Virus record (IMG/VR): IMGVR_UViG_3300020187_000091
Coordinates: 1 to 36,587 of that record
From: a virus
Strand: one strand, 5' to 3'
DNA: 36,587 nucleotides
Within the stretch, counting starts at the first letter, position 1; each line of letters begins with the position of its first letter. The notes below the pieces were generated by a model. The model made no database searches, was not told the origin of the DNA, and saw only the letters and a list, made by a program, of their open reading frames with translations. A program made the translations under genes and the position numbers. Positions 5,631 through 21,690 of the stretch are shown in pieces.

Positions 5631-6508
5631 TGGCTGATTTTAAACCATACCCTAAAAAACAAGTAGAAATTAGTAAAGGATTGCAAACCGCATTTGATAC
5701 TGAAAGGGGAAATCCCAATAAAGATGTTAACCCCAATAAATCTCAAACTGGAATTGAATTTAATAGATCAACTAAGATCAGCCAAAAAGGAGATACTTCA
5801 AAAACATTTTCAGTAGGACTTAAAGATATTGATGAGGCTGTATTTTACTATTTTAATAATGTAATTCAACCCTTTGTATATCAAAATGGAGAAAGAAGAA
5901 CAGTCCCTATAATATATGGTAATCCTGAAAGATGGAAATCATATCAAAGAGATGGGTATTATAGAGATAAAGGAGGATCAGTAATGCTTCCAATTATAAT
6001 AATAAAAAGAGATTCTATAGAAAAAGATAGAAGTACTTACAATAAACTAGACTCTAATTCACCCAACTTATATGGAACTTTCCAACAGGGTTTCAATGCC
6101 AAAAACTCATATAATAACTTTAACTTATTAAATAATAGAACCCCTACTAAACAATTTAACACCATAGTAGTTCCTGATTACCTTAATGTAACTTATAGTT
6201 GTATTGTTCAAACTTACTACATGGAACAATTAAATAATATAATTGAGGCCGTAGAATATGCTTCTGATTCATATTGGGGTGATCCGGAAAGGTTTAAATT
6301 TAATACTAGGGTAAATTCTTTTACTACGGCTGCTGAAATGACAGCTGGTCAAGATAGACTAGTTAAAAGTACTTTTGATATTAACTTAAGGGGTTATATC
6401 ATCCCGGACGTAATGCAGAAAGATTTAAATTCCATTAAAAAACTGAATTCAAGATCCAAAATAAACATTACTACTGAAACTACTGGAAACATTAATGAAA
6501 TTCCGTGA
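5630..6508 (+). CDS. Tail completion and sheath stabiliser, gp15-like
   Basis: This 292-residue protein is the likely T4 gp15 counterpart (272 residues), the hexameric cap on top of the finished tail that lets it join the head. The most telling region is about residues 185-270: TYSCIVQTYYMEQLNNIIEA, followed by a phenylalanine- and threonine-rich strand region and FDINLRGYIIPDVMQ, a pattern shared with gp15 proteins. The N-terminal 60 residues are polar and repeatedly use NPNK. Start and stop overlap with the gp14-like gene (TAATG). Placement third in the 13-14-15 order supports the call. Confidence 0.65.
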   Translation: MADFKPYPKKQVEISKGLQTAFDTERGNPNKDVNPNKSQTGIEFNRSTKISQKGDTSKTFSVGLKDIDEAVFYYFNNVIQPFVYQNGERRTVPIIYGNPERWKSYQRDGYYRDKGGSVMLPIIIIKRDSIEKDRSTYNKLDSNSPNLYGTFQQGFNAKNSYNNFNLLNNRTPTKQFNTIVVPDYLNVTYSCIVQTYYMEQLNNIIEAVEYASDSYWGDPERFKFNTRVNSFTTAAEMTAGQDRLVKSTFDINLRGYIIPDVMQKDLNSIKKLNSRSKINITTETTGNINEIP

Positions 6509-6539
6509 TAAATTGAATTAGGTTCATTATGTTGTACCT

Positions 6540-8700: not shown

Positions 8701-8708
8701 AAATACAC

Positions 8709-8718
8709 ATATTTATAA
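8709..8718 (+). promoter_or_regulatory. Late promoter box ATATTTATAA
   Basis: Exact motif with the flank TTAAAACAATT, 16 nt before the ATG at 8735. Confidence 0.58.
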
Positions 8719-8734
8719 TTAAAACAATTAAACA

Positions 8735-8986
8735 ATGAAGTTATCTAAAGAAGAATTACAATCAATTAATGATTTACAGTTACAAAGCGATCAAATTAAA
8801 TTTGCTTTTGGAGAGTTAAAAATCCAAGAATTAAATTTATTTGAACAACTTAAAAGTGTAGGTGTGCAACAAAACGAATTAGGGGTAGTCCTTACTGAAA
8901 AATATGGAAATGGCCGAATTGACTTATCAACTGGGGAAGTTACACCTCTTGATGAAGAAAATACCACAACTCCAGAAACACCTTAA
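8735..8986 (+). CDS. Small coiled-coil protein next to the tail sheath gene
   Basis: This 83-residue protein is mostly helical. Residues 2-60 have heptad-like leucine and isoleucine spacing (LSKEELQSINDLQLQSDQI and on), followed by EKYGNGRIDLSTGEVTPL and an acidic, Thr-rich tail. The short GxGxIDLxTGExTP segment resembles the ending of small hypothetical proteins found beside sheath genes in other T4-like phages. No function is known to me; a chaperone or minor tail role would fit. It has its own late box, and a terminator overlaps its stop codon, so it can be a single-gene transcript. Confidence 0.75.
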   Translation: MKLSKEELQSINDLQLQSDQIKFAFGELKIQELNLFEQLKSVGVQQNELGVVLTEKYGNGRIDLSTGEVTPLDEENTTTPETP

Positions 8987-9004
8987 TTTTTTGAGGTTTT
9001 TTTT
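8980..9004 (+). terminator. Weak Rho-independent terminator overlapping a stop codon
   Basis: ACCTTAA (8980-8986) pairs with TTGAGGT (8991-8997), including one G-T pair, over a TTTT loop and leads into T8. The stem contains the TAA stop of the preceding gene. It is AT-rich, so termination may be partial. Confidence 0.55.
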
Positions 9005-9005
9005 A

Positions 9006-9015
9006 ATATTTATAA
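9006..9015 (+). promoter_or_regulatory. Late promoter box for the tail sheath gene
   Basis: Exact ATATTTATAA directly after the terminator T-run and 25 nt before the sheath ATG. Confidence 0.6.
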
Positions 9016-9040
9016 ATAAATACAATAAATAACATATAAA

Positions 9041-11290
9041 ATGGCAGAAACATTAATATCACCTGGTGTATTGGCTCGCGAAAATGATCAATCTTTTATT
9101 CAAGGTCAACCAGTAGAAGCAGGAGCGGCTGTAGTAGGACCAGCGGCTAAAGGTCCTGTTGGCATTCCAACATTAGTAACTTCATTTAGTGAGTACAGAG
9201 CAATTTTTGGTGGAGCTATTACTAGTGGATCATCAGAATACACTTACTTAACATCAATCTCAGCAAATAATTATTTTTCTCAAGGAGGAAAGTCATTATT
9301 AGTAACTAGAGTAGCAAAAGGTACATTTACCGATGCTACATCTACGGATTTATATAATTCTGTAGAAACTGGGGATTTAGCATTAAAAACTTTATCTGTT
9401 ACAGGTGGTGTAGGAGGAGTAGCTTCAACTTATAGTAATGTTCCTTTAACAGCATCAAATGGTACTGAAGGTATTATTACTATTGTAAAAGGTTTAGCAG
9501 CAGGTAAATTAGACACCTCAGCAGATGCTTTGTTAAGTTCAATTTCACAACAATCTACAGGAGTAGCAGCTTCTACTTACGCAAGTGTTGCAACAACAAC
9601 AAATGGCGCAGGTTCAGGAGCAGTATTAACTTTAGTAGCTGATGGAACTGTTTCTTCAGTTACAGTAACGACACAAGGAAGTGGATATGCTGTTGGAGAT
9701 GAGTTAGTTGTAGCAGGAAGTGCTATTGGATCATCATCAGATATTAAATTTATATTAGTAGCAGATGATATAGTAGTAGAAGTAGAAAGTGCAACTATTA
9801 CTACAGCAGGAAGTGGATATGTTGTAGGAGAAACAATTTCAGTAGGATCAGCGGCGTTAGGAGGAGGAACAGATGTTTCTTATACTTTAACTGCTGGAGA
9901 TATTGTAAATCAAGTTCCTTTTGTATTATCTACTATATCTGAAGGAGTTATAATGAATAGTTCAGGTTCAGAAGTAGGAAATGGCGCTTTATCTTTAGGT
10001 ACACAAGACAACATTCGATGGGAAATTGTTTCATCAAACGTAAATTCTGGTACATTTAGCTTATTAGTTCGTAGTGGTAATGATACTAACCGAAATAAAT
10101 CAATTTTAGAAACTTGGACAAACTTATCATTAGATCCAAAAGCACCTAATTATTTAGAAAAAGTAATTGGTAACACAAGCTATTCTATAGTAGTTGATGG
10201 TGTTGATTCTTACGTACAATCACAAGGAGAATATATTAATAAAAGTAAATACTTAAGAGTATCTGCAGTAACAGCAAAAACACCAGATTATTTCGATAAT
10301 GCTGGAAATGCAAAATCAGCATATACTTCAAGCTTACCATTTGTAGGTTCAGGTTCATTTAGTGGAGCCGTAGGTACATTATTTGGTGCTGGAGCTAAAT
10401 TTTATGATCAAATCACAGCAGCTGATATCCAAGGATTAAGCCCTAGTGATTATACATCATCAATCACTTTATTAAATAATAAAGATGATTATAAATTTAA
10501 TTTACTTACAGCCCCAGGATTAAATTCATCTGATCACTCAACACCAGTAAATTTATTGGTTACAACAGCAGAAGCACGTCAAGATTGCATCGCTGTAGTA
10601 GACCTAGATGGGTATGGGACAGGAATTAGTACTGTAATTAATAACGCAGCTTCGTTTGATAGTTCATATGCAGCTACATATTTCCCTTGGTTACAAACAT
10701 TAGATCCAAATACGGGACAAGCAGTATTCGTACCAGCTTCAACATTGATACCTGGTGTATATGCTTTCACAGATGCTTCAAGTGATGCATGGTTTGCACC
10801 TGCAGGTTTAACAAGAGGTGCTCTTGGAAATGTAACTAAAGCAGAAAGAAAATTAACAACAACAAACAGAGATTCACTATATGAAGCTAATGTAAATCCA
10901 ATTGCAACATTCCCAGGAAATGGAGTTGTAGTATTTGGACAAAAAACATTACAGAAACGAGCTAGCGCATTAGATCGTGTGAATGTACGTAGATTATTGA
11001 TTGCTCTAAAAGGCTATATATCTCAGGTATCTGACAACTTAGTATTTGAACAAAACACGATTGCTACAAGAAATACTTTCTTAGCACAAGTAAACCCATA
11101 CTTAGAATCAGTACAACAAAGACAAGGATTGTATGCATTCAAAGTAGTAATGGATGATACTAATAACACTCCAGATGTAATCGATAGAAACCAACTAGTA
11201 GGTCAAATCTATTTACAACCAACTAGAACAGCAGAATTTATTATGTTAGATTTTAATGTTTTACCAACAGGAGCAGTTTTTCCGGAATAA
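9041..11290 (+). CDS. gp18: Tail sheath protein, gp18-like
   Basis: This 749-residue protein is the contractile sheath subunit (T4 gp18 has 659). The N-terminus SPGVLARENDQSF, followed by AAVVGPAAKGPVGIPTLVTS and FSEYRAIFGG, is the standard opening of sheath proteins. The C-terminal region (about 610-749) holds the conserved fold: NPIATFPGNGVVVFGQKTL, ALDRVNVRRLLIALKGYI, NTFLAQVNPYLESVQQRQGL and FIMLDFNVLPTGAVF. The middle carries extra surface domains, including a duplicated GSGY.VG unit at about residues 210-288. The gene has its own late box. T4-type sheaths tolerate variation in the outer domains, so the extra length is not surprising. Confidence 0.95.
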   Translation: MAETLISPGVLARENDQSFIQGQPVEAGAAVVGPAAKGPVGIPTLVTSFSEYRAIFGGAITSGSSEYTYLTSISANNYFSQGGKSLLVTRVAKGTFTDATSTDLYNSVETGDLALKTLSVTGGVGGVASTYSNVPLTASNGTEGIITIVKGLAAGKLDTSADALLSSISQQSTGVAASTYASVATTTNGAGSGAVLTLVADGTVSSVTVTTQGSGYAVGDELVVAGSAIGSSSDIKFILVADDIVVEVESATITTAGSGYVVGETISVGSAALGGGTDVSYTLTAGDIVNQVPFVLSTISEGVIMNSSGSEVGNGALSLGTQDNIRWEIVSSNVNSGTFSLLVRSGNDTNRNKSILETWTNLSLDPKAPNYLEKVIGNTSYSIVVDGVDSYVQSQGEYINKSKYLRVSAVTAKTPDYFDNAGNAKSAYTSSLPFVGSGSFSGAVGTLFGAGAKFYDQITAADIQGLSPSDYTSSITLLNNKDDYKFNLLTAPGLNSSDHSTPVNLLVTTAEARQDCIAVVDLDGYGTGISTVINNAASFDSSYAATYFPWLQTLDPNTGQAVFVPASTLIPGVYAFTDASSDAWFAPAGLTRGALGNVTKAERKLTTTNRDSLYEANVNPIATFPGNGVVVFGQKTLQKRASALDRVNVRRLLIALKGYISQVSDNLVFEQNTIATRNTFLAQVNPYLESVQQRQGLYAFKVVMDDTNNTPDVIDRNQLVGQIYLQPTRTAEFIMLDFNVLPTGAVFPE
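9668..9904 (+). repeat. Tandem 44-residue repeat inside the sheath gene
   Basis: Two units start at residues about 210 and 254, with GSGY at 213 and 257. Each reads TT.GSGY.VG(D/E), then a small-residue strand, then a DI ending (VADDI, TAGDI). The preceding segment GSGAVLTLVADGTVSSVTV looks like the lead-in strands of the same module. Ser/Gly/Val-rich beta repeats of this style occur in virion surface proteins; this is probably a decoration domain on the outside of the sheath. Confidence 0.7.
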
Positions 11291-11305
11291 AAACAAAATA
11301 TTTAA

Positions 11306-11315
11306 ATATTTATAA
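11306..11315 (+). promoter_or_regulatory. Late promoter box for the tail tube gene
   Basis: Exact ATATTTATAA, 17 nt before the ATG at 11333, in the 42-nt gap between sheath and tube genes. Gives the abundant tube protein its own transcript. Confidence 0.6.
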
Positions 11316-11332
11316 TAAAATAAACACATAAA

Positions 11333-11821
11333 ATGGCAGTATTAGATCCTAACGAAATATTTTATACGGCATTTGAGCCGAAACAAAAGAACAGATTCAT
11401 CATGTATATTGATGGTTTCCCTTCATACCTTATGAAAGGTGTAGGAGCTGTAACTGTATCACAAGGAACAGTACCTTTAAATCACATTAACGTTCAACGT
11501 TTTGTGAAAGGTAAAACAACTTGGGGTACTATTCAATTTACATTATTTGATCCAATCACTCCATCTGGTGCACAATCAGTAATGGAATGGGTTAGATTAC
11601 ATCACGAATCAGTAACAGGTAGAGATGGGTATAGTGATTTCTATAAAAAAGATTTAACTATTAACGTATTAGGACCTGTAGGTGATATCGTATCTGAATG
11701 GATTATCAAGGGAGCATTAATTACAGAAGCTTCATTTGGAGATTACAACTGGGATACTGAAAATGCTGCTCAAGAACTTACAATGACAGTACAACCTGAT
11801 TATTGTGTATTAAATTTCTAA
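11333..11821 (+). CDS. gp19: Tail tube protein, gp19-like
   Basis: This 162-residue protein is nearly identical in length to T4 gp19 (163) and forms the inner tube through which DNA passes. Position immediately after the sheath gene, and the features KNRFIMYIDGFPSYLMKGVG, the strand KTTWGTIQFTLFDPI, WVRLHHESVTGRDGYSDFYKKDLTI and LITEASFGDYNWDTENAAQELTMTVQPDYC, are all typical of T4-type tube proteins. A strong terminator follows 30 nt after the stop. Confidence 0.95.
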   Translation: MAVLDPNEIFYTAFEPKQKNRFIMYIDGFPSYLMKGVGAVTVSQGTVPLNHINVQRFVKGKTTWGTIQFTLFDPITPSGAQSVMEWVRLHHESVTGRDGYSDFYKKDLTINVLGPVGDIVSEWIIKGALITEASFGDYNWDTENAAQELTMTVQPDYCVLNF

Positions 11822-11851
11822 TTTTTCATTTTACTTTAAATAATAAACAGA

Positions 11852-11882
11852 AGGAGCTTGATTTGTCAAGCTCCTCTTTTTT
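11852..11882 (+). terminator. Rho-independent terminator after the tail tube gene
   Basis: AGGAGCTTG (11852-11860) pairs perfectly with CAAGCTCCT (11867-11875) over ATTTGT and runs into CTTTTTT. Ends the tube transcript. Confidence 0.92.
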
Positions 11883-11893
11883 ATTCATATTAT

Positions 11894-11999
11894 CCCTTTA
11901 AGTAAGGGTGGAAGCTTCTACTATACCAACACCCAACCCTTAACTGTAGAAGAGAACAGAAAAAAGAAAGATAGGTTGGATATTAGATAGATTTTTTTT
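11894..11999 (+). other. Structured non-coding spacer with a possible H-type pseudoknot
   Basis: Between the tube terminator and the next promoter-like box I see interleaved complementary segments: TAAGGGT (11903-11909) with ACCCTTA (11936-11942), and CTTCTAC (11915-11921) with GTAGAAG (11946-11952), which together would form a pseudoknot. Alternatives are CCCTT (11894-11898) with AAGGG (11904-11908), and CCAACC (11933-11938) with GGTTGG (11974-11979). The stretch ends in T8 (11992-11999). It has no open frame of note. It could be a small RNA or a processed terminator region. Confidence 0.35.
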
Positions 12000-12006
12000 A
12001 TATTAC

Positions 12007-12017
12007 ATATGTATTAA
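12007..12017 (+). promoter_or_regulatory. ATATGTATnAA box before the gp26-like gene
   Basis: ATATGTATTAA lies 8 nt after a T8 run and about 30 nt before the ATG at 12047. It shares its core with boxes at 3054 and 30887. Confidence 0.35.
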
Positions 12018-12046
12018 CGAACAAAACGTTTTAATAAATAAAGATT

Positions 12047-12772
12047 ATGACTGAATTTAAATTCCCAACAGAAGAAATTGAATTACCCTCTAGAGGATTA
12101 ATATACCCTCCCGACAACCCACTATCCAGTGGTAAAGTAGAAATTAAATATATGACTGCTAAAGAAGAGGATATTCTAACCAACCAATCTTACATACAGA
12201 AAGGTACAGTTTTAGATAAATTGCTAGAATCTGTAATAGTATCTAAAATTAACATTAATGACTTAATTGTAGGTGATAAAAATGCACTTTTAATAGCAAC
12301 TCGTATATTAGGGTATGGTAGTAATTATGAAATCACCATTAATGGAAATGTAGAAAGTATTAACCTTACAGATATCGAAAATAAACCCTTTAGTGAAGAT
12401 AAGGTACAAAAAGGAGTAAATGAATTTTCTTTTACTTTACCTCATAGTGATACACCAATCACTTATAAAATTTTAACTGGTAAAGATGAAAAAAATATAG
12501 AAAGGGAACTAATTGGACTTAAAAAAATAAACAAAAATTCTTCCCCTGATTTATCAACAAGATTAAAATACGTAATAACCTCAGTTAATGGGGATACAGA
12601 AACAAAAACTATTAGAGAATTTGTGGATGGGTATCTATTAGCTAGAGATTCTAGAGCACTACGAGAACACATCAAAAATACCCAACCTGATGTAGACCTT
12701 AATGTAATTCTAGATTCAGGAGAGGAGGCTAAAGTGCCCATTGGGCTTAACTTTTTTTGGCCTGACGCCTAG
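12047..12772 (+). CDS. gp26-like baseplate assembly / tail chaperone protein
   Basis: This 241-residue protein has the hallmark opening of the T4 gp26-type family: FPTEEIELPSRGLIYPPDNPLSSGKVEIKYMTAKEEDILTN at about residues 4-46, followed by GTVLDKLLESVIV. The C-terminus VPIGLNFFWPDA is also family-like. In T4, gp26 is needed for baseplate hub assembly; in related phages genes in this position before the tape measure act as tail assembly chaperones. The last coding stretch crosses a T7 run (12752-12758), and an open frame shifted by +1 continues past the stop for 92 more codons. It is therefore probably the first half of a frameshift pair with the 12741-13049 frame. Confidence 0.7.
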   Translation: MTEFKFPTEEIELPSRGLIYPPDNPLSSGKVEIKYMTAKEEDILTNQSYIQKGTVLDKLLESVIVSKININDLIVGDKNALLIATRILGYGSNYEITINGNVESINLTDIENKPFSEDKVQKGVNEFSFTLPHSDTPITYKILTGKDEKNIERELIGLKKINKNSSPDLSTRLKYVITSVNGDTETKTIREFVDGYLLARDSRALREHIKNTQPDVDLNVILDSGEEAKVPIGLNFFWPDA

Positions 12773-13049
12773 TCTAGCACCCCAAATAAGAATAAATTTA
12801 TTTAGACAGATCCACCAAATAATTTTCCATGGAAAGGGTGGGTATGATCACCATACTGTATATAATATGCCATTATGGCTTCGTAAATTTACATTTTCTG
12901 AAATTCAAAAGTTTTATGACGATGAAAAGGAAGCACAAGAAAAACCAACTTCAGGTAAATCAAATTTAATAAATTCCGATGGTACTGTAAACGCCCCTGA
13001 TTTTAAAAAAGCATCACAAGATTACAAAGGAAGGAGCAGCTATAAATAG
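12741..13049 (+). CDS. Second tail-assembly frame, probably expressed by frameshift
   Basis: This 102-codon frame overlaps the end of the gp26-like gene by 32 nt. The frame is open from 12714. The only candidate initiator before its conserved part is TTG at 12741; the first ATG (12867) would cut off half the protein. Its core, IHQIIFHGKGGYDHHTVYNM followed by PLWLRKFTFSEI, resembles the downstream half of tail assembly chaperone pairs. The upstream frame reads AAC TTT TTT TGG; sliding forward by one base gives TTT GGC, so a fused product of about 340 residues is possible. A purine-rich AGGAGAGGAGG (12718-12728) lies upstream and could serve either as a ribosome site for the TTG or as a stimulator. 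A terminator overlaps its stop codon. Confidence 0.6.
   Translation: MGLTFFGLTPSLAPQIRINLFRQIHQIIFHGKGGYDHHTVYNMPLWLRKFTFSEIQKFYDDEKEAQEKPTSGKSNLINSDGTVNAPDFKKASQDYKGRSSYK
12750..12761 (+). other. Candidate +1 (or -2) ribosomal frameshift site
   Basis: The T7 run at 12752-12758 lies in the overlap of the two frames, 12 nt before the zero-frame stop at 12770-12772. Both frames encode F-F here, so the pairing of Phe-tRNA is preserved after the slip. The downstream frame is +1 relative to the upstream one, so this is not the common -1 arrangement. Confidence 0.45.
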
Positions 13050-13060
13050 TTGCTCTTTTT
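13034..13060 (+). terminator. Rho-independent terminator overlapping a stop codon
   Basis: GAGCAGCTA (13034-13042) pairs with TAGTTGCTC (13047-13055), with one G-T pair and a TAAA loop, followed by T5. The TAG stop of the preceding frame lies in the 3' arm. Immediately followed by the late box of the tape measure gene. Confidence 0.85.
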
Positions 13061-13061
13061 G

Positions 13062-13071
13062 ATATTTATAA
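13062..13071 (+). promoter_or_regulatory. Late promoter box for the tape measure gene
   Basis: Exact ATATTTATAA followed by CAAAAT, 12 nt before the ATG at 13084 and directly after a terminator. Confidence 0.6.
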
Positions 13072-13083
13072 CAAAATACCTTT

Positions 13084-15414
13084 ATGGCATCCGAACAAGA
13101 CTTAAATAGAGCTAAAGAACTTCTTGCTACTGAAGAAGCAAGATTATCTATAAAGCAAAAACAGAACAACTTAGATTCTGATTCTGTTGGCCTTGCTTCT
13201 TCCCTAGTTGACTCTATTAAAGAAATTCAAGGTATAAGTACTAAAAGAACAACTTTTGATACTAATATACTTAAGATTAATAAAGATATTTCTAAAGAAA
13301 TATTAGGGCAAAAAAGGGGTCTTGCTTCGGTTGAAGCTATAGATAAACAACTACTCAAAAATAAAGAATCCCTTAATAAAGCTTCAAAAATAGAAAATGC
13401 TTTAATCTCTTCTTTATCTTCTAAAGAACAAAAAAGGGTAAAATATGCTAATGATAGAGCTAGCGATATTTTAAAGGAAAAATCAATTCAAGAAGATTTA
13501 CTAGCAGCCGCGGAAACAGGAGCAGGGTTTGACCGAATAGCATTTGAAGCCTCTGAAAAAAGACAATTAAATGCTGAAGATACATTATCTTATCATACTA
13601 GATTATTGGGTCCTTTAGGTCAACAAGCAGTATTTACTAAACAAAATGCTGATGAATTAGAACGTCAGAATAAGATAAGAGAAAAAGAAAAGGGTATTAT
13701 TGAAGCCAATGAAAAAAAATTAGGAGCTTTTGGTGGTATTTTAAAAGGTATAAGTAAAATACCTATATTAGGGGACTTAGTAGACACGGACGCCATATTA
13801 GGTAAGGCCATGGATAAAATAAAAGATGGAGGAAGTGGTGTTGCCGGTTTAGGTGCGGGGTTGAAAGAAGCAGGAAGTCAAATGCTATCAAGTCTTACAA
13901 ACCCTGCTAACATAGCTTTATTCGCTTTTACTCAAATGCTTTCCCTACTAAAAACAATGGGTGAGCTCATACTAGGGAATAATGCAAAAATAACTCAGTT
14001 TGAGAAAACTATGGTTATGTCTAGTAGTGAAGCTAAAACTCTTGCAGGTACTTTTTCTGAAACCGCTGGGGAATTAGATGATATAAATGTAACAAGTAAG
14101 GGTATGATCCATACCTTTATGGATATGAGCCAACAATTTGGCTTTATGGCCAAATTTTCACAAGACACATTAGCAACTGCTACTAGGTTACAAGCAACAA
14201 CCGGTATAACTGCTGAAGCAGCAGGATCACTAGCTGCATCTTCAGAAATAACTGCCGGGAGTTTTGATGACCAATATAAAAACGCACTAGCTACCAGTTA
14301 CGAATTACAAAGACAAACAGGAGTTCAGTTTGATATGAAAGGAATTTTAGAAGAAACTTCTAAAGTAACTGGAACTGTTAGAGCTAACTTAGGTGGAAAT
14401 ATAGAAGCAATTGCAAAAGCAGTTACTCAAGCTAAACTATTTGGTGCCTCCTTAGATGATGTCGCGTCTGCGGGAAATGCCTTGTTAGATTTTGAAAGTT
14501 CAATAACCAAGGAACTAGAAGCTGAATTACTAATTGGTAGAAATATTAATTTAGAGAAAGCAAGGGCAGCGGCCTTAGCCGGTGATCAAGTAACACTAGC
14601 ACAAGAATTACAAAAGGAAGCAGGTACCTTATCTGAATTCCAAGATATGAATGTTATACAACAACAGGCTTTAGCTGCTGCCATGGGTATGACTTCTGAT
14701 CAAATGGCTGATATTTTATTTCAACAAGAAATACAAGGAAAATCAGCAGAAGATTTAAGAGCATTAGGTAAAGACGAATTGGCAAATAGGTTAGAGCAAC
14801 AAACAGCTCAAGAATCTTTAGCTGCCTCAATGGAATCGGCTAAATCAGCCTTGGGTGATATGTTAAAATTTATAGACCCTTTACTACAAGGAGTTGCTTT
14901 ATTTGCAACAACACTTTCGGGTATGGTTCCTATTATAGGAGCATTAGGTGCTGGTTTTGCTTTTATTAAAATTTCCCAAATGGCCACATCAGGTGCATTA
15001 ATGAAAAATTTAGGTCTTATGTGGGGTCAAGTAAAGGCATTAGCTGCTCAAGCTGTTGCTTTTGCTGTTGCAAACCCCTTTACGGCACTTGCTGGTTTAG
15101 CAATTGCGGGGGGTGTAGGTGCCTATTTATACTCTCAAGCAGATGATATGATGTCTCCTGGTGGAGCTGGAGGTGGATATGGTAAACGTACTCTAATGGG
15201 TCCTGAAGGGGCAATTGCCCTAAATAATAAAGATACTGTTATAGCAGGAACTAATTTATTTCCTAAAGAAAATGGATCATCTCAACAAAGTGTAACAAAC
15301 ACTACTGTAGTTAAACCCGATAATGGTAAAATGGAAAGCCTATTATCTAAATTAGTTATGCAAAACGATAAAAAACAAGAAATATCACCAGTTGGTTTAT
15401 ATGAAATTGCTTAA
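13084..15414 (+). CDS. Tape measure protein
   Basis: This 776-residue protein follows the tube and tail-chaperone genes, the usual place of the protein that sets tail length (T4 uses gp29, 590 residues). Residues about 1-225 are highly charged coiled coil. A short Gly/Ala-rich hydrophobic stretch follows at about 215-300. Residues 300-590 are helical with many Ala, Gln and Glu. A cluster of hydrophobic helices at about 600-690 (GVALFATTLSGMVPIIGALGAG, AVAFAVANPFTALAGLAIAG) resembles the membrane-active part of tape measures that helps DNA cross the inner membrane. The Gly-rich linker near 695-705 and the polar C-terminus complete the protein. No lytic domain is visible. Assigned by size, composition and position. 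Confidence 0.8.
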   Translation: MASEQDLNRAKELLATEEARLSIKQKQNNLDSDSVGLASSLVDSIKEIQGISTKRTTFDTNILKINKDISKEILGQKRGLASVEAIDKQLLKNKESLNKASKIENALISSLSSKEQKRVKYANDRASDILKEKSIQEDLLAAAETGAGFDRIAFEASEKRQLNAEDTLSYHTRLLGPLGQQAVFTKQNADELERQNKIREKEKGIIEANEKKLGAFGGILKGISKIPILGDLVDTDAILGKAMDKIKDGGSGVAGLGAGLKEAGSQMLSSLTNPANIALFAFTQMLSLLKTMGELILGNNAKITQFEKTMVMSSSEAKTLAGTFSETAGELDDINVTSKGMIHTFMDMSQQFGFMAKFSQDTLATATRLQATTGITAEAAGSLAASSEITAGSFDDQYKNALATSYELQRQTGVQFDMKGILEETSKVTGTVRANLGGNIEAIAKAVTQAKLFGASLDDVASAGNALLDFESSITKELEAELLIGRNINLEKARAAALAGDQVTLAQELQKEAGTLSEFQDMNVIQQQALAAAMGMTSDQMADILFQQEIQGKSAEDLRALGKDELANRLEQQTAQESLAASMESAKSALGDMLKFIDPLLQGVALFATTLSGMVPIIGALGAGFAFIKISQMATSGALMKNLGLMWGQVKALAAQAVAFAVANPFTALAGLAIAGGVGAYLYSQADDMMSPGGAGGGYGKRTLMGPEGAIALNNKDTVIAGTNLFPKENGSSQQSVTNTTVVKPDNGKMESLLSKLVMQNDKKQEISPVGLYEIA

Positions 15415-15418
15415 TTCA

Positions 15419-15428
15419 ATATTTATAA
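15419..15428 (+). promoter_or_regulatory. Late promoter box before the baseplate gene cluster
   Basis: Exact ATATTTATAA followed by CAAAATAAAA, 12 nt before the ATG at 15441, in the 26-nt gap after the tape measure gene. It may drive the whole 15441-21690 cluster, which has almost no further gaps. Confidence 0.6.
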
Positions 15429-15440
15429 CAAAATAAAATT

Positions 15441-15650
15441 ATGGGAATATTAGACAAATTACAATCTGCAGGTTCAGTATATTCAAGAGATAATGGAGCA
15501 ACTCCAGTAACTCCAAGATTTGCTGATTCTACTTTACACAAAGAATACTCTATAACGGGAGCACCCGCTGTATTAGGAAAACCTTCACCATCACAATTAG
15601 ATTTAAATGGTAGTTCTCCTGACAAATATATAGATAATTTACCAGAATAA
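15441..15650 (+). CDS. Small protein at the head of the baseplate cluster
   Basis: This 69-residue protein opens MGILDKLQSAGSVYSRDNGA and has a low-complexity, Pro/Ser/Thr-rich remainder (TPVTPRF, GAPAVLGKPSPSQLDLNGS) with no membrane segment or recognisable motif. It has a late promoter box directly upstream and the next gene starts 11 nt after its stop, so it is probably a minor virion or assembly protein. The opening MG..L is shared in style with the next gene. No function can be assigned. Confidence 0.7.
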   Translation: MGILDKLQSAGSVYSRDNGATPVTPRFADSTLHKEYSITGAPAVLGKPSPSQLDLNGSSPDKYIDNLPE

Positions 15651-15661
15651 ATACTTTTTAA

Positions 15662-17476
15662 ATGGGACTAGTTAATTTAACAACAAACTTAAAGTCCTTA
15701 CGTTACGGAAAAGATAGAATAGGTGGGGGATCTAGTGGTCAACCTTATATCAAAACAGATATACCTGATAGCTTTTCGGATGTAGGGAAGACCGGAGGAC
15801 CTGATGTCATTTTACGAGGTGGAACTTTAGTACCTGGTAGAGCGGCTAAAGATGTCTCTAGGTTAACTCAAATGTTTTTTGATTTTAAATCAATTGGAGG
15901 TCCTTTATTCATAGCCAAAGAAAATATCCTTTCTCGAACATCGGTTGCCATAGATGGTCAAGGTAAAGCACTAAATAACGGTGTATACTTGCCGACCTCT
16001 ACTCTGTTACAATCCGCTGGTAATTCTTTAGGTTTACATTTAAATAAGCAAGGAATTGATCCTTTTAAAGGTATAGGAAAAGACGGTGGTGGTATATTTG
16101 AATTATTTGGGGGTACAGATCCATTAGGACAACCTAGCTACTCAGCAATAACCTCTAATCCCAGATATGAAAGTAAATTAAAAGGGTTTGTTAATAGTAA
16201 AATTAATACTAAAACAACCGATACAGAACTTCTTAATTATCAAGGAGGACCTGGATCTGTATTAGGAATTGGTAGAACTAGAATACCTTTAGCTAAAAAC
16301 AGAACAGGAGTTAACAATAGTAAATTATTCTACACTCTAGGTAAAGTATCAGGAGATCTTAATAACCCTGATTCTTCCTTTACCTACACCCCATCAGTAT
16401 ATGATAAACAAACTGATACTACGGGTTTACAAGGAAAAAGAGATAATGATTTCTTCTTAAGAACAGGGGCATCAATAAAATACCTTGAATTAGGAGTTGA
16501 CCCCAAAGATAAAGCAATTTTATCAAGTGGTGTTAACGGAGATGGTAGTATAAAATATCCTACTGTTGAAACTTATAAACAAAAAGAAGTTGATAATAAA
16601 GTTTTAGAAGACTTTAGAAGTAAAAATAATAAAACCTTTAGTCTAGATTATACAAAAGATAACATTGAAACCCGAGTAAATCTAGGTAACCCTGGAAAAA
16701 AAGGAAATATTTCAAATTATCAAATAGGAAAAAGGGATGCTGCTGGTAAAAAAATAGGAGCTACTGATAAAATAAACGCCTTTCCTCTTTATAAATCTGG
16801 TGTAGTTACTCAAGATGAAGCAAAAAATGATTTAGTAAAATTTAGAATTGGTATTATTCAAAATGACAATCCTGCTGAAAAGGTATTTATACACTTTAGA
16901 GCACTTTTAGATGGTATGAGTGATAGCTATTCAGCCGATTGGGCAGGTGATAGTTTAATGGGTAGAGGGGAAAAATTTTATAGATATAATGGGTTTGAGA
17001 GAAGCATTTCATTAGGGTGGACAGTAGTAGCTCAATCCAAGGATGAATTAATTCCCATGTATCAAAAACTAAATTATTTAGCATCAACTCTAGCCCCTGA
17101 TTATTCTAAATCCTCAGGTTATATGAGAGGTAATTTAGCAACATTAACAGTAGGGGGGTATTTATATGAACAACCTGGTATTATTACAGGTTTAAGTTAC
17201 AATGTTCCCGAAGAATCACCTTGGGAAATTGCAATTCCAGCTTTAGGAGGAGCAGATAAAAATAATAAAATAAAATCAGATAAATCGGTAAAGGAAATGC
17301 CTCACATGATAAAAGTTTCTGGTTTTAATTTTATACCTATTCATGAATTTGTCCCATCTGTTCAAAAGAATGATTTTGATTCTAATGGTAAGTTAAGTAA
17401 ATTCGGCCAAGAAAGATATATATCTCTAAAAAACGGAGTAAATGATAACTATGATGATGTAAATTATATTAAATAA
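15662..17476 (+). CDS. Baseplate / tube-junction structural protein, possibly gp48/gp54-like
   Basis: This 604-residue protein lies between the tape measure and the gp53-like gene. The first 370 residues are Gly/Asn/Lys-rich and look extended. The C-terminal third appears to be a folded, tube-like domain: FIHFRALLDGMSDSYSADWA, then GRGEKFYRYNGFERSISLGW, MYQKLNYLASTLAPDYS, YMRGNLATLTVGGYLYEQPG and SPWEIAIP. The position fits a protein that starts or caps the tail tube on the baseplate (T4 gp48 or gp54), but I see no diagnostic motif, so this is an inference. The stop overlaps the next start (TAATG). Confidence 0.6.
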   Translation: MGLVNLTTNLKSLRYGKDRIGGGSSGQPYIKTDIPDSFSDVGKTGGPDVILRGGTLVPGRAAKDVSRLTQMFFDFKSIGGPLFIAKENILSRTSVAIDGQGKALNNGVYLPTSTLLQSAGNSLGLHLNKQGIDPFKGIGKDGGGIFELFGGTDPLGQPSYSAITSNPRYESKLKGFVNSKINTKTTDTELLNYQGGPGSVLGIGRTRIPLAKNRTGVNNSKLFYTLGKVSGDLNNPDSSFTYTPSVYDKQTDTTGLQGKRDNDFFLRTGASIKYLELGVDPKDKAILSSGVNGDGSIKYPTVETYKQKEVDNKVLEDFRSKNNKTFSLDYTKDNIETRVNLGNPGKKGNISNYQIGKRDAAGKKIGATDKINAFPLYKSGVVTQDEAKNDLVKFRIGIIQNDNPAEKVFIHFRALLDGMSDSYSADWAGDSLMGRGEKFYRYNGFERSISLGWTVVAQSKDELIPMYQKLNYLASTLAPDYSKSSGYMRGNLATLTVGGYLYEQPGIITGLSYNVPEESPWEIAIPALGGADKNNKIKSDKSVKEMPHMIKVSGFNFIPIHEFVPSVQKNDFDSNGKLSKFGQERYISLKNGVNDNYDDVNYIK

Positions 17477-17778
17477 TGAAAAGATATCAAAATACAGAAA
17501 TATTAAATGATCCACAAGGAAAGAGATATTATGGTACTACTAAATACCCTGAAATCCCTTTATCTCTAGAAGATATTTATGTTTATACTACCCAAGGAGA
17601 TAGATTTGATTTATTAGCACAACAATATTACAGCGATTCTTCCTTATGGTGGATAATTTCTTCATCAAACAGTGACCTCCCACAAAATTCTTATTACATT
17701 CCAGAGGGTAGGCAAATTAGAATCCCTCAAAATATAGCAGCAGTGATTTCCCAATTTAGGGCCTTAAATGAAAGATAG
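17476..17778 (+). CDS. LysM-containing baseplate wedge protein, gp53-like
   Basis: This 100-residue protein contains a LysM-type module at about residues 33-85: YVYTTQGDRFDLLAQQYYSD, then SLWWIISSSN and YYIPEGRQIRIP. T4 gp53, a baseplate wedge subunit, carries a LysM-like domain, and small LysM proteins are typical of contractile baseplates, where they bind neighbouring baseplate subunits rather than peptidoglycan. It is half the length of T4 gp53, so it keeps essentially only the LysM part plus a short N-terminal arm. The gene overlaps its upstream neighbour and is 2 nt from the hub gene, which points to tightly coupled expression. Confidence 0.75.
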   Translation: MKRYQNTEILNDPQGKRYYGTTKYPEIPLSLEDIYVYTTQGDRFDLLAQQYYSDSSLWWIISSSNSDLPQNSYYIPEGRQIRIPQNIAAVISQFRALNER

Positions 17779-17780
17779 TT

Positions 17781-20700
17781 ATGAATGGAAATATAGTAGG
17801 AGAAGAATTTGAAGATTATGTATTTGATCAAATATCTCAAAGACAAACCAACCAATATGCGGGTTACGAAACACCTCGTACACCGGAACAAATTCAATAT
17901 TTAAATAACACTACAGCTTGGGTAAAATTAGCATCCGGGGTTAAGATTGATGAGTCTAACGGAGGGCTTGATCGACTTAGAACTATATTAAATGGTGATT
18001 CGGAAAACGGATTTAAAGGAACCGAATTAGCAAAAAGTACCGTATTATTTAATGGTTTATCTGAAACAGATCCTGCTACATATAAAGATGGAAAAAAAGT
18101 AGAAAAATTAGCAGAGTATAATTTTAGATCCGGATACTCAAAAACAAATACTATATGGAACTCAACATCAGCCTATGGGTTAGGTGGTCCTGAATTTGGA
18201 CAACAACCAATGCCTGGAATCCAATCAGTTAATGTTAAATCCTTAAACCGAGGCTCAATTAGAGAGGCTAATGTTAAAATAAAAGCATACAATAAAATCC
18301 AATTTGCAATCATCGAATTCTTATATTTAAGAATAGGTTTTAGTATGATGTTAGAATGGGGGAATGATAAATTTATCAACAACAAAGGTGAATTTCAACC
18401 CACTGGAAACACTATTATTGAAGATTTATGGTTTGATGATAATGGATATACTCAATTGAGTATGATTGACGCTATAGAAAGGTATAGAAATATATATTCT
18501 GGAAATTATGATGGTTTCTTTGGTAAAGTAGTAAATTTTACATGGACCTTCGGGGCGGATGGAAGTTATGATATTGATTTGAAATTAATAACAGTAGGTG
18601 ATATAATAGAATCACTCCAAGCAAATATCCCTGTAAACTCATCAGAAGTATCAACAATAGATTCACAAGTTTCATCCTCAGTTAAAGACACAGGAGTTTA
18701 TCAAAATCTTGCAGAATCATCAATAGTAAATGCTGCACAAAACAATAAAATAGGAAAATATTTATTTACTAGTATAGGAGATAAAACTTTATGGGATGAT
18801 TCCAACCCAGAATATTTCTCCCTAAAAGAACAAAACATATCAACTTCAAACCGCAGAGGTAGAAATAGTAATAATTTCCAATTAGACCAAAAAATAAACG
18901 ATAAATATAACTATTTTATGACATTTGGGGAGTTATTATATATTTTTAAAAATAATTGTATTCCGGGTATAGAAACAAGTAAGGGTATCGAACCTTTATT
19001 AAATATGGAATCTGATGAAAATTCTAATAAAATTTCATATTACCCAAACCAAACCTCTTTAGACCCTAGAATTTGTATTTTTAATTATGTTTTTGGTAGT
19101 ATAGGGGAAGAAAACCCTAAATACAGCATAAGTGGTATTAAAAGTCCCCCATACTTAAAAACCCTAAAAGAATATATAGGAGTTGAAGGAACAGATGTAA
19201 TATATGGGAAATTAATGAATATATATTTAAATTATGATTTTATTTCTAAATGTTTAATATCTAACACTAAAGATGGAAAGTTATCCATGTTTAAATTTTT
19301 TCAAAAAATATGTGATGGGATTAATTCATCTTTAGGAGGCGTAAACAATATAGAACCTGTTATAAAAAATGATAAAATTGTAACTTTTATAGACCAAAAC
19401 CCTATCCCCGGATATTTAGAATTAATAGGTAAAGATAAAACGGTTGTAGATTTAGAAGTATATGGTTATAATCAATCTAAGAAATCTTCAAACTTTGTAA
19501 AAGATATTTCCTTTAAAACCGAAATTACACCTCAATTAGCTTCTATGATAACCATAGGAGGGGGAGGTGGTGAAAATGAAGATGGAACTGCCTTTTCTTA
19601 CTGGAATGAGGGTTTAATAGATAGGTTCCAACCAAAAATAAATGAAACTAAAGATAAGGTTACTCCCCAAGAAAAATTAAAAAAGGATAGAGTAGAATAT
19701 TTAATTAACTACTTTAATTCAAATTCATCATGGAATGCATTTTCTAGTACTGATTCTTCCGACCCTACAGGTAAAACATACCCCAATAAATTTGGAGGTG
19801 AAAGAAGGAATATAAGGTTAGATGTTATACGGGGTGTATATTCTTGTAAACAATTTATAAAACAAGTTTTAGATAACGACGCTTACCTAAAAAAATACAA
19901 AAACCTAATTTCTCAATCACAATTAGCAGGAGAAAAACAAAATAATTATGCTGCCTATTTAGCTGAAGCCTTTGGGGGTTCAACTGGTATAGTAGTTCAA
20001 TCTAGGGAAGAAAGAAGGAGGTCAAGTTCTAAAACAAAAATTATAAACAAAACCTTACAACCCATTCCTCTTAGTAAAGCAAAATATACTTTATTTGATA
20101 GCAAGTTTATAAGTAGAGCTAAATCTACCTATACCGTTTATATAAATTCAATGATGCGAGCTCAATTTGATAGTGATGGTAAAGATAAATCTCCTTCAAA
20201 TCAAATTGGTTTTATCCCTGTGGGTTTTGGGGTTCAATTACAAGGTATTTCGGGTGTAAAAATTTATAATAAATTAAATATTAACAATACTTTTCTACCC
20301 TCACAATATCCTAAGGCCTTAAAGTTTTTAGTAAAATCTGTTAGTCATACAATAGAAAATAACACTTGGACTACAAGCCTAGATACCTTATCCATTCCTA
20401 AAGTTAGAAAAACACCACGAAAAGGTGCACAGAAGTTTATAGATGCCTACCAAGTCCAAATTGGGGGGACTCCACTTGTTCCTTTTGATCAACAAGGTCC
20501 TGAAGTTCCAAAAGATAGTACTAAATCATACATGATTGGAGAAATTAGATATAAAGGAAAGTATTATAATTATGATGAAGCATCTAAGTTTATGAACATT
20601 GATGCCCAACCTACCTTCAGAGCCTTTTTCAAAGATTTTGTAAAAAACTGGCGCGGGTACACTATGCAAATAAATGCTATAGATAGATCAATTGCTAAAT

Positions 20701-21029
20701 CACTAGGTCTAAACACATTTAACTCACAAAACGCCGAACCAGGTTATTCCAAACATAACTATAGTGCGGCTATAGACTGTAATATAATAACTCCATCAAA
20801 CTATATGCTTCCTAAAAAAGGAATGAAGAATGGATGGATAAACCATGGATTTAGAAAACTTGCTGAAACCCATAACATAGAATGGGGAGGTAACTTCGGA
20901 ACGTATGAAGATTGTGTCCATTTTGCATATAACTTCAACATCAATAAAGCAGTAGCCAATGCAACTGAAGTTTATGGGTCAGTTTATAACCTCCCTTCAT
21001 CTAAGGGAAAAGAAATTAAATTAACGTAA
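17781..21029 (+). CDS. Baseplate hub protein with C-terminal M15-type peptidase (tail lysin)
   Basis: This 1082-residue protein is the largest in the window. Residues about 140-275 (IQSVNVKSLNRGSIREANVK, IEFLYLRIGFSMMLEWGND, VNFTWTFGADGSYDIDLKLI) look like a hub or spike-base domain. Residues about 275-890 are a long structural region. From about 910 there is a Zn peptidase domain of the VanY/M15 type: SKHNYSAAID supplies H992 and D999, and EWGGNFGTYEDCVHFAY supplies D1044 and H1047. These match the metal and catalytic positions of L-alanyl-D-glutamate and D-Ala-D-Ala peptidases; the usual Gly of SxHxxGxAxD is Ser here. In T4 the equivalent cell-wall-cutting role belongs to the gp5 lysozyme domain. 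It probably digests peptidoglycan under the baseplate during injection. Confidence 0.8.
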   Translation: MNGNIVGEEFEDYVFDQISQRQTNQYAGYETPRTPEQIQYLNNTTAWVKLASGVKIDESNGGLDRLRTILNGDSENGFKGTELAKSTVLFNGLSETDPATYKDGKKVEKLAEYNFRSGYSKTNTIWNSTSAYGLGGPEFGQQPMPGIQSVNVKSLNRGSIREANVKIKAYNKIQFAIIEFLYLRIGFSMMLEWGNDKFINNKGEFQPTGNTIIEDLWFDDNGYTQLSMIDAIERYRNIYSGNYDGFFGKVVNFTWTFGADGSYDIDLKLITVGDIIESLQANIPVNSSEVSTIDSQVSSSVKDTGVYQNLAESSIVNAAQNNKIGKYLFTSIGDKTLWDDSNPEYFSLKEQNISTSNRRGRNSNNFQLDQKINDKYNYFMTFGELLYIFKNNCIPGIETSKGIEPLLNMESDENSNKISYYPNQTSLDPRICIFNYVFGSIGEENPKYSISGIKSPPYLKTLKEYIGVEGTDVIYGKLMNIYLNYDFISKCLISNTKDGKLSMFKFFQKICDGINSSLGGVNNIEPVIKNDKIVTFIDQNPIPGYLELIGKDKTVVDLEVYGYNQSKKSSNFVKDISFKTEITPQLASMITIGGGGGENEDGTAFSYWNEGLIDRFQPKINETKDKVTPQEKLKKDRVEYLINYFNSNSSWNAFSSTDSSDPTGKTYPNKFGGERRNIRLDVIRGVYSCKQFIKQVLDNDAYLKKYKNLISQSQLAGEKQNNYAAYLAEAFGGSTGIVVQSREERRRSSSKTKIINKTLQPIPLSKAKYTLFDSKFISRAKSTYTVYINSMMRAQFDSDGKDKSPSNQIGFIPVGFGVQLQGISGVKIYNKLNINNTFLPSQYPKALKFLVKSVSHTIENNTWTTSLDTLSIPKVRKTPRKGAQKFIDAYQVQIGGTPLVPFDQQGPEVPKDSTKSYMIGEIRYKGKYYNYDEASKFMNIDAQPTFRAFFKDFVKNWRGYTMQINAIDRSIAKSLGLNTFNSQNAEPGYSKHNYSAAIDCNIITPSNYMLPKKGMKNGWINHGFRKLAETHNIEWGGNFGTYEDCVHFAYNFNINKAVANATEVYGSVYNLPSSKGKEIKLT

Positions 21030-21030
21030 T

Positions 21031-21690
21031 ATGTACTATCCTAAATCCCAAATCCAAGAAAACTTACACACCAATGGTGGGGAATTAAAACCCTTTAACT
21101 CTAACGATGAATATAAAGGATATTACTTTAAAACATCTAATGGGGAATTTTTCACTGGAAAATCCCCTTCTGATAAACCAAATATACCACTTGATTTCAT
21201 TGGTGAAGAACTTCCAATTACAAATTCCAACTCAAACAACCTTAATTCCAAAAGAAGAAATGCATTTCAACCCCCAGAATCAGAACCATTACCTGACAAT
21301 TATTTTATAATAGAAGATTCGTATTACAGCGCAAAGTTAATTCCAACAAATCGAGGAGAGGCACCTCGACTTCCCCAACAATCAAAACCAATACCTAATC
21401 AAGATGATTATAAAATAGGTGAATTTGAAAGATACTTTGTAAAAAAGGCTAATGAAAATAAGTTTATTGAAATTAATGAAGATGAATATAATTTGTTTGA
21501 AGTCCAAAATTCCAAAGTTCAATTTAATTTATATATTCCTATAAAATTTACATGGGCAATAACCGGAGATAGAACAGAGGTATTTAATAGGAATAAATCA
21601 ATATCCTTTTTATATGAAACAAGGGATAAATTACCTGGTTTTAGTCTATTATTCCAAAACAAATTTGATAAGTATTTTAAACCTTCCTAG
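21031..21690 (+). CDS. Unidentified protein ending the baseplate cluster
   Basis: This 219-residue protein starts 1 nt after the hub gene and its stop overlaps the -33 region of the next promoter, so it is the last gene of the late block. The N-terminus MYYPKSQIQENLHTNGGELK, followed by YKGYYFKTSNGEFFTGKSP, is a pattern I have the impression of seeing in distant T4-like phages, but without a known role. The middle is Pro/Asn-rich (residues 70-125), and the C-terminal half contains a strand-rich KVQFNLYIPIKFTWAITGD. No membrane segments. It is probably a virion component by position. Confidence 0.7.
   Translation: MYYPKSQIQENLHTNGGELKPFNSNDEYKGYYFKTSNGEFFTGKSPSDKPNIPLDFIGEELPITNSNSNNLNSKRRNAFQPPESEPLPDNYFIIEDSYYSAKLIPTNRGEAPRLPQQSKPIPNQDDYKIGEFERYFVKKANENKFIEINEDEYNLFEVQNSKVQFNLYIPIKFTWAITGDRTEVFNRNKSISFLYETRDKLPGFSLLFQNKFDKYFKPS

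Follow-up and report, generated by a model that had tools for sequence, protein, structure and literature searches.

The window analysed here, i.e. the whole 36,587-nt stretch of the IMG/VR record IMGVR_UViG_3300020187_000091, carries a 1082-aa open reading frame with an ATG start (17781..21029, + strand) within a T4-like gene set, which comprises a Gp23 capsid protein match (E 7.7e-71), a tail sheath, PhoH, gp32, a DnaB-type helicase and a UvsX-type recombinase. The ORF and its two motifs are as described in the first-pass annotation, SKHNYSAAID beginning at residue 990 and EDCVHF at residue 1043, and the positions it gave for H992, D999, D1044 and H1047 are correct. The features of the locus are as follows:

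13084..15414, + strand: 776-aa ORF, putative tape measure, from gene order compared with phage immuto (NC_055915)
17476..17778, + strand: small baseplate gene of 100 aa ahead of the hub, assigned to PHROG 7145 (baseplate wedge subunit) at E 2.1e-12
17781..20402, + strand: baseplate hub body, residues 1-874, gp27/Mu gp44/VgrG-type fold with large insertions (AlphaFold and VIA-align)
20403..20522, + strand: linker, residues 875-914, low pLDDT; relatives with different modules cease to be homologous near here
20523..21026, + strand: M15_4 (M15C-like) zinc peptidase domain, residues 915-1082 (PF13539 and fold match)
20748..20777, + strand: SKHNYSAAID, with S990 and the predicted zinc ligands H992 and D999, invariant in relatives
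20910..20921, + strand: DCVH, containing D1044 (predicted catalytic base) and H1047 (predicted third zinc ligand), invariant in relatives
21031..21690, + strand: conserved downstream gene, 219 aa, MYYPKSQ... family, right-hand border of the exchange slot described below

The 776-aa ORF has no Pfam or PHROG match at E 0.1. A homologue of the 219-aa gene lies at most 60 nt after the hub in 81 of the 88 fused cases where one was found among the matches listed. Its product is predicted with a pLDDT of 86.7; it has no PDB match under E 0.001 and a best VIA-align Z of 2.8, and a spike identity is supported by neither search. Another IMG/VR contig (L003) encodes a protein 100% identical to the window hub-lysin, and nine further contigs carry full-length copies at 50-65% identity. 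With full-length copies on ten other contigs, the ORF is therefore not an assembly chimera.

Predicted fold and active site of the fused protein

In the AlphaFold monomer, from which the architecture was read and which contains weak stretches, residues ~37-876 fold like the gp27/VgrG-type hubs. VIA-align places many hub chains within residues 10-894 at Z 9-11.7, including T4 gp27 (1k28_D; Z 10.2, rmsd 4.6, 257 aligned residues, 11% identity), the R2 pyocin hub (Z 10.7) and the Mu chain 9ki1_G (Z 10.8). Nearly all hub alignment rows end at residues 871-876, the beginning of a low-confidence linker (pLDDT 60-72 for the blocks 871-920). A Foldseek search with the whole model gives one PDB match only at E ≤ 0.001, a VgrG. 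The hub body is conserved across 55 aligned hubs, and on the predicted model the N-terminal part of the window protein is a gp27-type baseplate hub, which would sit as a trimer at the tip of the tube, judging from its fold.

The C-terminal domain belongs to the M15_4-type (M15C-like) zinc peptidases by profile, predicted fold and active-site residues. The Pfam family PF13539 (Peptidase_M15_4) matches residues 988-1050 with E 1.5e-8 and 35.6 bits (40.6 bits in a second Pfam run), the curated cut-off being 25. The VanY family (PF02557) stays below its cut-off of 25, with 14.8 bits for the whole protein and 17.7 bits for the tail alone; D1044 moreover stands in a D-x-x-H motif, and a VanY-type identity was rejected on these two grounds. 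The model is confident over the domain (pLDDT 83-97 for every ten-residue block from 921 onward), and VIA-align matches it to 2vo9 (Ply500; residues 915-1082, Z 8.3, rmsd 4.5, 136 aligned), to 8q2g (LysECD7; residues 919-1059, Z 8.3, rmsd 2.9, 116 aligned) and to 5opz (ChiX; residues 912-1057, Z 8.1, rmsd 4.1, 127 aligned). Note that, with LysB4 and VanX included, the Z of these matches to the predicted model spans 6.8-8.3, and that Z values below 8 may reflect a common arrangement according to the VIA-align warning; the M15 case is therefore carried by the sequence profile. By phmmer, a single weak PDB match was obtained, again the L-alanyl-D-glutamate peptidase 2vo9 (E 0.29), with the motifs aligned.

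We take the roles of the M15C residues to be those of three zinc ligands in the order H, D, H (H992, D999 and H1047) and of a catalytic acidic residue, D1044, three positions before the last His. All 17 aligned relatives share S990, H992, D999, D1044 and H1047 without exception, and likewise Y994, W1035-G-G and F1048; the alignment takes in the whole M15_4 cluster of 18, near duplicates included, except L010, which is cut before the motif. Residue 995, the Gly position of SxHxxGxAxD, is variable in the same 17 tails, some of which are close kin (Y 9, G 3, A 3, S 1, N 1). The Ser at 995, which the first-pass annotation had singled out as an unusual Gly-to-Ser change, is thus not notable, since the position varies freely in relatives, and we discarded it as a functional oddity. 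The central proposal of that annotation, a hub protein fused to a C-terminal M15 zinc peptidase, holds under the profile search and the structure prediction that it had put forward as checks, the active site being intact and the hub body gp27-like. Its attribution of the metal and catalytic set to "VanY/M15" enzymes stands for M15, in the M15_4/M15C-like form with D-x-x-H, and falls for VanY. Peptide-bond cutting is the chemistry that would be expected of such a domain from its sequence.

A probable exchange slot behind the hub body

To the right of residue ~874, the relatives differ in kind. They are metagenomic and were taken as the best 80 of 131 and the best 80 of 347, a survey leaning toward close relatives; the whole window stood in for locus L001, only hubs with the C-terminal anchor were counted, and each tail was taken from the equivalent of residue 874 onward. 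The 165 hub C-termini obtained among the matches listed reduce to 111 distinct ones, the window and L003 forming one entry. Over these 111, the hub is conserved to about residue 874 and the sequence beyond is exchanged: 93 are fused tails of at least 90 aa (four cut by a contig end), 15 are complete and tail-less, and three are cut short. The exchange is illustrated by the pair L032 and L037, whose hub bodies match at 795 of 899 aligned residues (88%) and whose next genes match at 164 of 202, with the tails matching at 51 of 187; identity falls off just past the equivalent of residue 874 and the modules are unrelated.

The slot modules among the matches listed include M15_4, VanY, Amidase_2, tail lysozyme, SLT, SleB-type and GH19 domains, with weaker matches to M23, CHAP and glucosaminidase, and others of no known family. 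Counted over 108 slot proteins at E ≤ 0.01, where some matches lie below curated cut-offs and one protein may match several models, the Pfam families are M15_4 (20), VanY (10), Phage_lysozyme2 (9), Amidase_2 (9), Hydrolase_2 (4), Phage_lysozyme (3), DUF5715 (3), DUF5675 (2), SLT (2), GH19 (2), CHAP (2), Glucosaminidase (2) and M23 (1). Many slot proteins match no family (e.g. L046, L082, L064 and L066), so that lysin identity is shown for part of the modules.

Among the matches listed, 15 complete hubs stop at the boundary, and in 13 of them a separate gene occupies the gap. At least weak lysin evidence is available for seven of these 13 loci, from Pfam above the cut-off (L049, L080) or below it (L051, L054, L058), from PHROG (L081) or from cluster membership (L085); L062 is DUF5675, and no lysin evidence was assigned to L067, L076 (first gene), L078, L101 and L102. 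The 219-aa-type gene is found 655-2157 nt from the tail-less hub in 12 of 14 cases listed, with one or two genes between, and at 3 and 15 nt in the remaining two; the lineages of L087 and L093/L094 have no module in the slot. By single linkage at E < 1e-4, a procedure in which shared linkers or simple sequence may join proteins (two unlike L076 genes fall together), the slot proteins listed form 23 clusters, of which six mix fused and separate members. The M15_4 cluster is in frame with the hub in 18 of 18 members.

Module type was then placed on a hub tree built by a quick method from 58 hubs, near duplicates dropped, all from the best 80 of 131 relatives and none from the later survey; L070_10644 and L045 (hub split over two ORFs) are omitted, and some module labels were given by cluster or by eye (SGNH, the CHAP group, the L085 amidase and the second L076 gene as M23). 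At least 32 changes of the C-terminal module are required on this tree, with a floor of 20 for 21 states, each unfamiliar module being treated as a separate state; restricting the count to the 41 hubs with named modules gives 18 changes among 11 states. In 200 shuffles, the mean was 41.8 changes and the minimum 37, so that module type also follows descent. The M15_4 state requires at least five changes, and is fused in 8 of 8 hubs of the clade of the window. Overall, the C-terminus of the hub has the appearance of a slot in which entry lysins are exchanged, and not of a one-off replacement of the gp5 lysozyme.

Known entry devices and the proposed mode of action

The closest relative from a described phage is the hub of Flavobacterium phage vB_FspM_immuto (YP_010114650.1), whose body is homologous to that of the window protein (28% identity over residues 6-523) and whose gene order is shared: sheath, tube, tape measure, small gene, hub. 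It also ends in an M15-superfamily domain, annotated merely as "carboxypeptidase". This domain is VanY-like (SPHGWGGALD ... EMWHF), a form present in the immuto hub and its relatives, whereas that of the window is M15_4, i.e. a different module in the same slot. Among BFVD models, the best Foldseek matches to the whole model are the uncultured Caudovirales phage proteins A0A6J5LVA1 (E 2.6e-47, TM by query 0.50) and A0A6J5KUA7 (E 8.6e-39, TM by query 0.46), each at 19% identity, with a different enzyme or none named; A0A6J5LVA1 is named for a glucosaminidase-like domain and is thus a comparable hub with another wall-cutting module. The putative tail lysins A0A068CAS9 (Listeria phage LMTA-148, E 6.9e-8) and C1KFN1 (Lactobacillus phage Lb338-1, E 6.1e-6) match with low TM-scores of 0.17-0.23 and 8-9% identity.

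The closest known kind is that of the Gram-positive Tal lysins: the window protein has a hub-type N-terminal part followed by a wall-hydrolase domain and, by gene order, comes after the tape measure gene. A survey of enterococcal phages (PMC10194240) describes TAEPs that begin with a tail domain in the Tal position; behind it, some groups carry other lysin domains (PF18013 lysozyme, CHAP, M23 or amidase), and PF06605 is common to all five architecture groups. The window protein has no Pfam hit to PF06605 at E 0.1, though its hub is remote from any profile. Tal/TAEP phages infect Gram-positive hosts, whereas the window is from a T4-like contractile phage; compared with these enterococcal TAEPs, its lineage has a wider module set and a fused tail alternating with a separate next gene. 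The gp27-gp5 device of T4 has a like hub fold and cuts the wall at the tail tip, but it places its enzyme, a lysozyme, in gp5, a spike protein distinct from the hub that also has an OB domain, while the window has a predicted peptidase fused to the hub. The M15C enzymes Ply500, ChiX and LysECD7 share the fold and active-site motifs of the window domain; they are endolysins or a host enzyme, whereas the window domain sits in a hub and has the motif Gly replaced. Among the literature matches listed, a set with subscription journals largely outside its scope, we recognised no paper describing exchangeable lysins on contractile-phage hubs.

We infer that the host is Gram-negative; it may belong to the Bacteroidota, as suggested by the one isolated relative. 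A search of genome contigs for a host gave one divergent locus only (L177), in a MAG.

The best explanation, to which we give a probability of about 0.78, is that the window protein is the hub of a T4-like contractile phage with a C-terminal entry lysin, of predicted activity, in an exchangeable slot. A gp27-type hub trimer would close the tip of the tube and present three M15_4 zinc peptidase domains via the linkers. Upon contraction, once the outer membrane is crossed, these domains would cut a stem-peptide bond of the peptidoglycan, most likely L-Ala-D-Glu by likeness to Ply500 and ChiX, and so open the wall locally for passage of the tube. The position after residue ~874 is, on this reading, a recombination slot at which related phages exchange a module, fused or separate, between a retained hub and a retained downstream gene; separate lysins would attach to the hub.

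The first-pass annotation had instead read the protein as a single lineage-specific fusion, in which peptide cutting replaced the glycan cutting of T4 gp5. The gp5 OB profile (Gp5_OB, PF06714) indeed matches 0 of 10 records of the lineage, with T4 as positive control at E 1.8e-68, and the window protein itself has no Pfam hit to a gp5 OB or lysozyme domain; the uniform M15_4 fusion in the clade of the window also fits such an event. Phage_base_V and PAAR profiles likewise match 0 of the 10 records, with controls matched, though most of these records may be fragments and distant gp5 or PAAR versions may escape profiles. However, about ten other wall-hydrolase families occupy the same slot, relatives carry amidase-, lysozyme-, transglycosylase- and further peptidase-type modules, and M15_4 itself changes repeatedly on the tree. 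A one-off gp5 replacement, already weakened by this exchange pattern, was rejected and seems to us very unlikely; nothing in these data shows a gp5-type lysozyme to be the ancestral state.

The C-terminal domain could otherwise be a catalytically idle M15 fold that seals the tube as its tip or plug, another protein then cutting the wall. The slot proteins outside recognised enzyme families would fit this, as would the lineages with an empty slot, in which the module is dispensable. We consider it unlikely: the predicted zinc and catalytic positions are invariant while their neighbours vary, and the exchange of unrelated folds sharing wall-hydrolase chemistry is hard to fit to a structural role. 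A third reading, in which a release endolysin has become joined to a tail gene and acts at lysis rather than entry, is highly improbable; the domain matches endolysin families in PHROG and endolysins account for several of its nearest solved structures, but every member of the M15_4 cluster is in frame with its hub, a T4-type lysozyme gene lies elsewhere in 2 of the 10 lineage records, and in immuto a lysozyme gene is annotated about 10 kb from the hub.

Exchange of entry lysins on the hub may extend further. A segment Y-x-x-I-x-x-x-V-x-x-I-I is found in the separate genes at 7 of the 13 loci and in 10 of the 93 fused tails, of several families (≤ 1 in 1000 shuffles), among the matches listed; its seeds were picked by eye from the separate genes, so the scan tests the fused tails alone. 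The segment is absent from the protein of the window. We give roughly even odds to the view that the hub is a universal socket for a large T4-like clade, into which at least ten kinds of lysin have been plugged by linker recombination, whether as a fusion or as a separate gene product that would bind the hub through this short segment at its N-terminus. If so, a lineage could switch the bond cut at entry with the rest of its tail untouched.

These data suggest that the entry lysin of a contractile phage need not be a gp5-type lysozyme, and that it may be exchangeable like a tool bit on one hub. Natural swap pairs, such as the two 88% identical hubs with different modules, offer a means to probe what selects the bond that is cut, with host wall chemistry, competition and immunity as candidates. 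The slot also provides a repertoire of wall-cutting domains that are already linked to the tail, in phages whose hosts may be Bacteroidota.

Predicted hub and M15 domain of the window protein

The window carries a T4-like gene set, with a Gp23 capsid protein, PhoH, tail sheath, tail tube and baseplate genes, as well as gp32, a UvsX-like recombinase, a DnaB-type helicase and a ribonucleotide reductase, and is a fragment of a T4-like phage. The PhoH-like gene (3178-3867) lies within the structural cluster, adjoining the Gp23 capsid gene, and two glycosyltransferase genes (Glyco_trans_1_4, Glyco_transf_9; 6540-8700) have head genes on one side and the tail sheath on the other. The two genes central to this analysis are:

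17781-21029, + strand, hub-peptidase ORF, 1082 aa
21031-21690, conserved downstream gene, 219 aa, borders the slot described below, fold predicted with confidence and no PDB structure matched under E 0.001

An AlphaFold model of the window protein, built from a 55-sequence alignment, has a mean pLDDT of 76.5, with every ten-residue block from 921 onward at 83-97. Searched as a whole against the PDB, it gave a single Foldseek match at E ≤ 0.001, a VgrG. Using VIA-align, residues ~37-876 superpose on the gp27, Mu gp44, R-pyocin, eCIS and VgrG hubs with Z up to 11.7 (T4 gp27, 1k28_D: Z 10.2, rmsd 4.6, 257 aligned), in support of the baseplate hub proposed in the first-pass annotation; from this fold, the hub would be a trimer. 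The hub alignments stop at residues 871-876 in nearly all rows, and residues 912-1082 superpose on Ply500, LysECD7, ChiX, LysB4 and VanX with Z 6.8-8.3, a moderate range according to the tool's own warning. The best hits to predicted viral structures are proteins of uncultured phages; the name of the top one refers to a glucosaminidase-like domain (E 2.6e-47).

Pfam Peptidase_M15_4 matches residues 988-1050 over its curated cut-off (E 1.5e-8), as expected from the M15-type peptidase already proposed, while VanY stays under its own; the sole PDB sequence match is the L-alanyl-D-glutamate peptidase 2vo9 (E 0.29). The M15-like superposition together with the Pfam match indicates that the hub part runs straight on into an M15 peptidase. 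The motif positions had been read exactly (S990-K-H992, D999, D1044, H1047). Across 17 tails of the M15_4 cluster (an 18th member is cut), S990, H992, Y994, D999, W1035-G1036-G1037, D1044, H1047 and F1048 are invariant. Residue 995, the Gly of the classic motif, is Y in nine, G and A in three each, and S and N in one each, so that the Gly-to-Ser change is not the unusual feature it was taken for; by this alignment the position is free to vary, and Ser995 reflects drift.

The slot behind the hub body

Searches of IMG/VR yielded 17 relatives with the whole protein and 131 with an alignment, of which the best 80 were used; a second survey, seeded from another clade, used the best 80 of 347. Among named phages the only relative found is Flavobacterium phage vB_FspM_immuto, and an uncultured 484-kb phage gave one weak match. 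The hub body is conserved among relatives, but the tail past residue ~874 is not. From the best-matching relatives we collected 111 distinct hub C-termini: 93 carry a fused tail (truncated at a contig end in 4), 15 are complete but tail-less and 3 break off too early to be classed. A homologue of the downstream gene lies at most 60 nt behind the fused hub in 81 of the 88 cases where one was found, the exceptions being five loci with an extra separate ORF in the gap and two of the tandem hubs of L070 (L-numbers denote loci on contigs of relatives). Where the hub has no tail, the distance to this gene is 655-2157 nt in 12 of 14 cases, one or two separate genes filling the gap, and in L087 and L093 the gene comes directly after the hub; in L058 the contig ends within the separate slot gene. 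This spacing indicates that fused and separate modules are alternative states of one position, the slot, combined at the five loci with an extra ORF.

Single-linkage clustering sorts the 108 slot proteins, of which 93 are fused and 15 separate, into 23 clusters, six of which hold fused and separate members together. Pfam matches at E ≤ 0.01, with several models per protein possible and some matches under curated cut-offs, comprise the peptidases M15_4 (20), VanY (10) and M23 (1), then Phage_lysozyme2 and Amidase_2 (9 each), Hydrolase_2 (4), Phage_lysozyme and DUF5715 (3 each), DUF5675, SLT, GH19, CHAP and Glucosaminidase (2 each), SLT_4 (1) and five further models with one match each. In individual scans, many tails matched no family.

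Several loci depart from the simple layout. A fused module plus a separate ORF ahead of the downstream gene occurs in L083, L074, L113, L107 and L070 (16258-17037). In L087 (7998-10466) and L093/L094 the slot holds neither, the lysin being elsewhere or none being used. Two successive separate genes with the same kind of start segment follow one tail-less hub in L102 (8595-10069) and L076 (10529-12666), the second L076 gene being M23-like by eye. L016 (5902-10389) encodes a very long hub of about 1490 aa with large hub insertions and a SleB-type Hydrolase_2 tail, similar to L014, which is cut by the contig end. The hub of L045 (7667-10934) is in two ORFs of 380 and 718 aa, either because the gene is split or through a frameshift in sequencing. 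L070 (6061-16243) carries tandem hub-like ORFs whose three tails all differ:

6061-9180, full hub
9188-10636, N-terminal half of a hub in two ORFs
10650-12977, C-terminal half of that hub, with its own tail
12992-16243, full hub

Module exchange and a candidate docking segment

Mapped on a tree built from 58 hub bodies, the 21 module states require a minimum of 32 changes (floor 20); shuffled labels gave a mean of 41.8 and never fewer than 37 in 200 shuffles. Modules thus in part track descent, yet are often exchanged. Restricting the count to named modules (41 hubs, 11 states) gave 18 changes. M15_4 versus all other modules requires at least 5. The clearest exchange pair is L032 and L037, identical at 795/899 positions in the hub bodies, 51/187 in the tails and 164/202 in the next gene; similarity breaks directly past the common ...SIPKTEPY, and further downstream the aligned pieces have 81-94% DNA identity.

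Irrespective of the enzyme, 9 of 15 separate genes (7 of 13 such loci) share a start segment, Y-x-x-I-x-x-x-V-x-x-I-I. A matrix from eight separate-gene segments detects it in 10 of 93 fused tails, belonging to several families, at ≤ 1 of 1000 shuffles (0.14 expected); the same scan found none in the window's tail. The segment may be a docking element or may reflect common linker ancestry.

Comparison with T4 and proposed role in entry

Unlike T4, the tail of this lineage seems to function without a recognisable gp5, as none of ten records, namely that of the window, immuto and eight larger contigs, matched the Gp5_OB, Phage_base_V or PAAR profiles, although remote versions or missing contig parts could account for this. 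As controls, T4 matched Gp5_OB (E 1.8e-68), and the Phage_base_V and PAAR profiles matched in their own control genomes. Two of the 10 records have a T4-type lysozyme gene.

Tal-type proteins with added lysin domains are known in Gram-positive phages (PMC10194240), and the immuto hub gene is already annotated 'carboxypeptidase'. We found no earlier description of exchangeable hub lysins in the open-access literature searched; the T4-like setting, the breadth of module exchange and the alternation between fused and separate modules are new. With hub and M15 folds and active site as predicted from model and alignment, the hub would present M15 peptidases at the tube tip, where they would cut stem peptides during entry, with activity, bond and timing as expected from the family. 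This role in entry is the most likely one.
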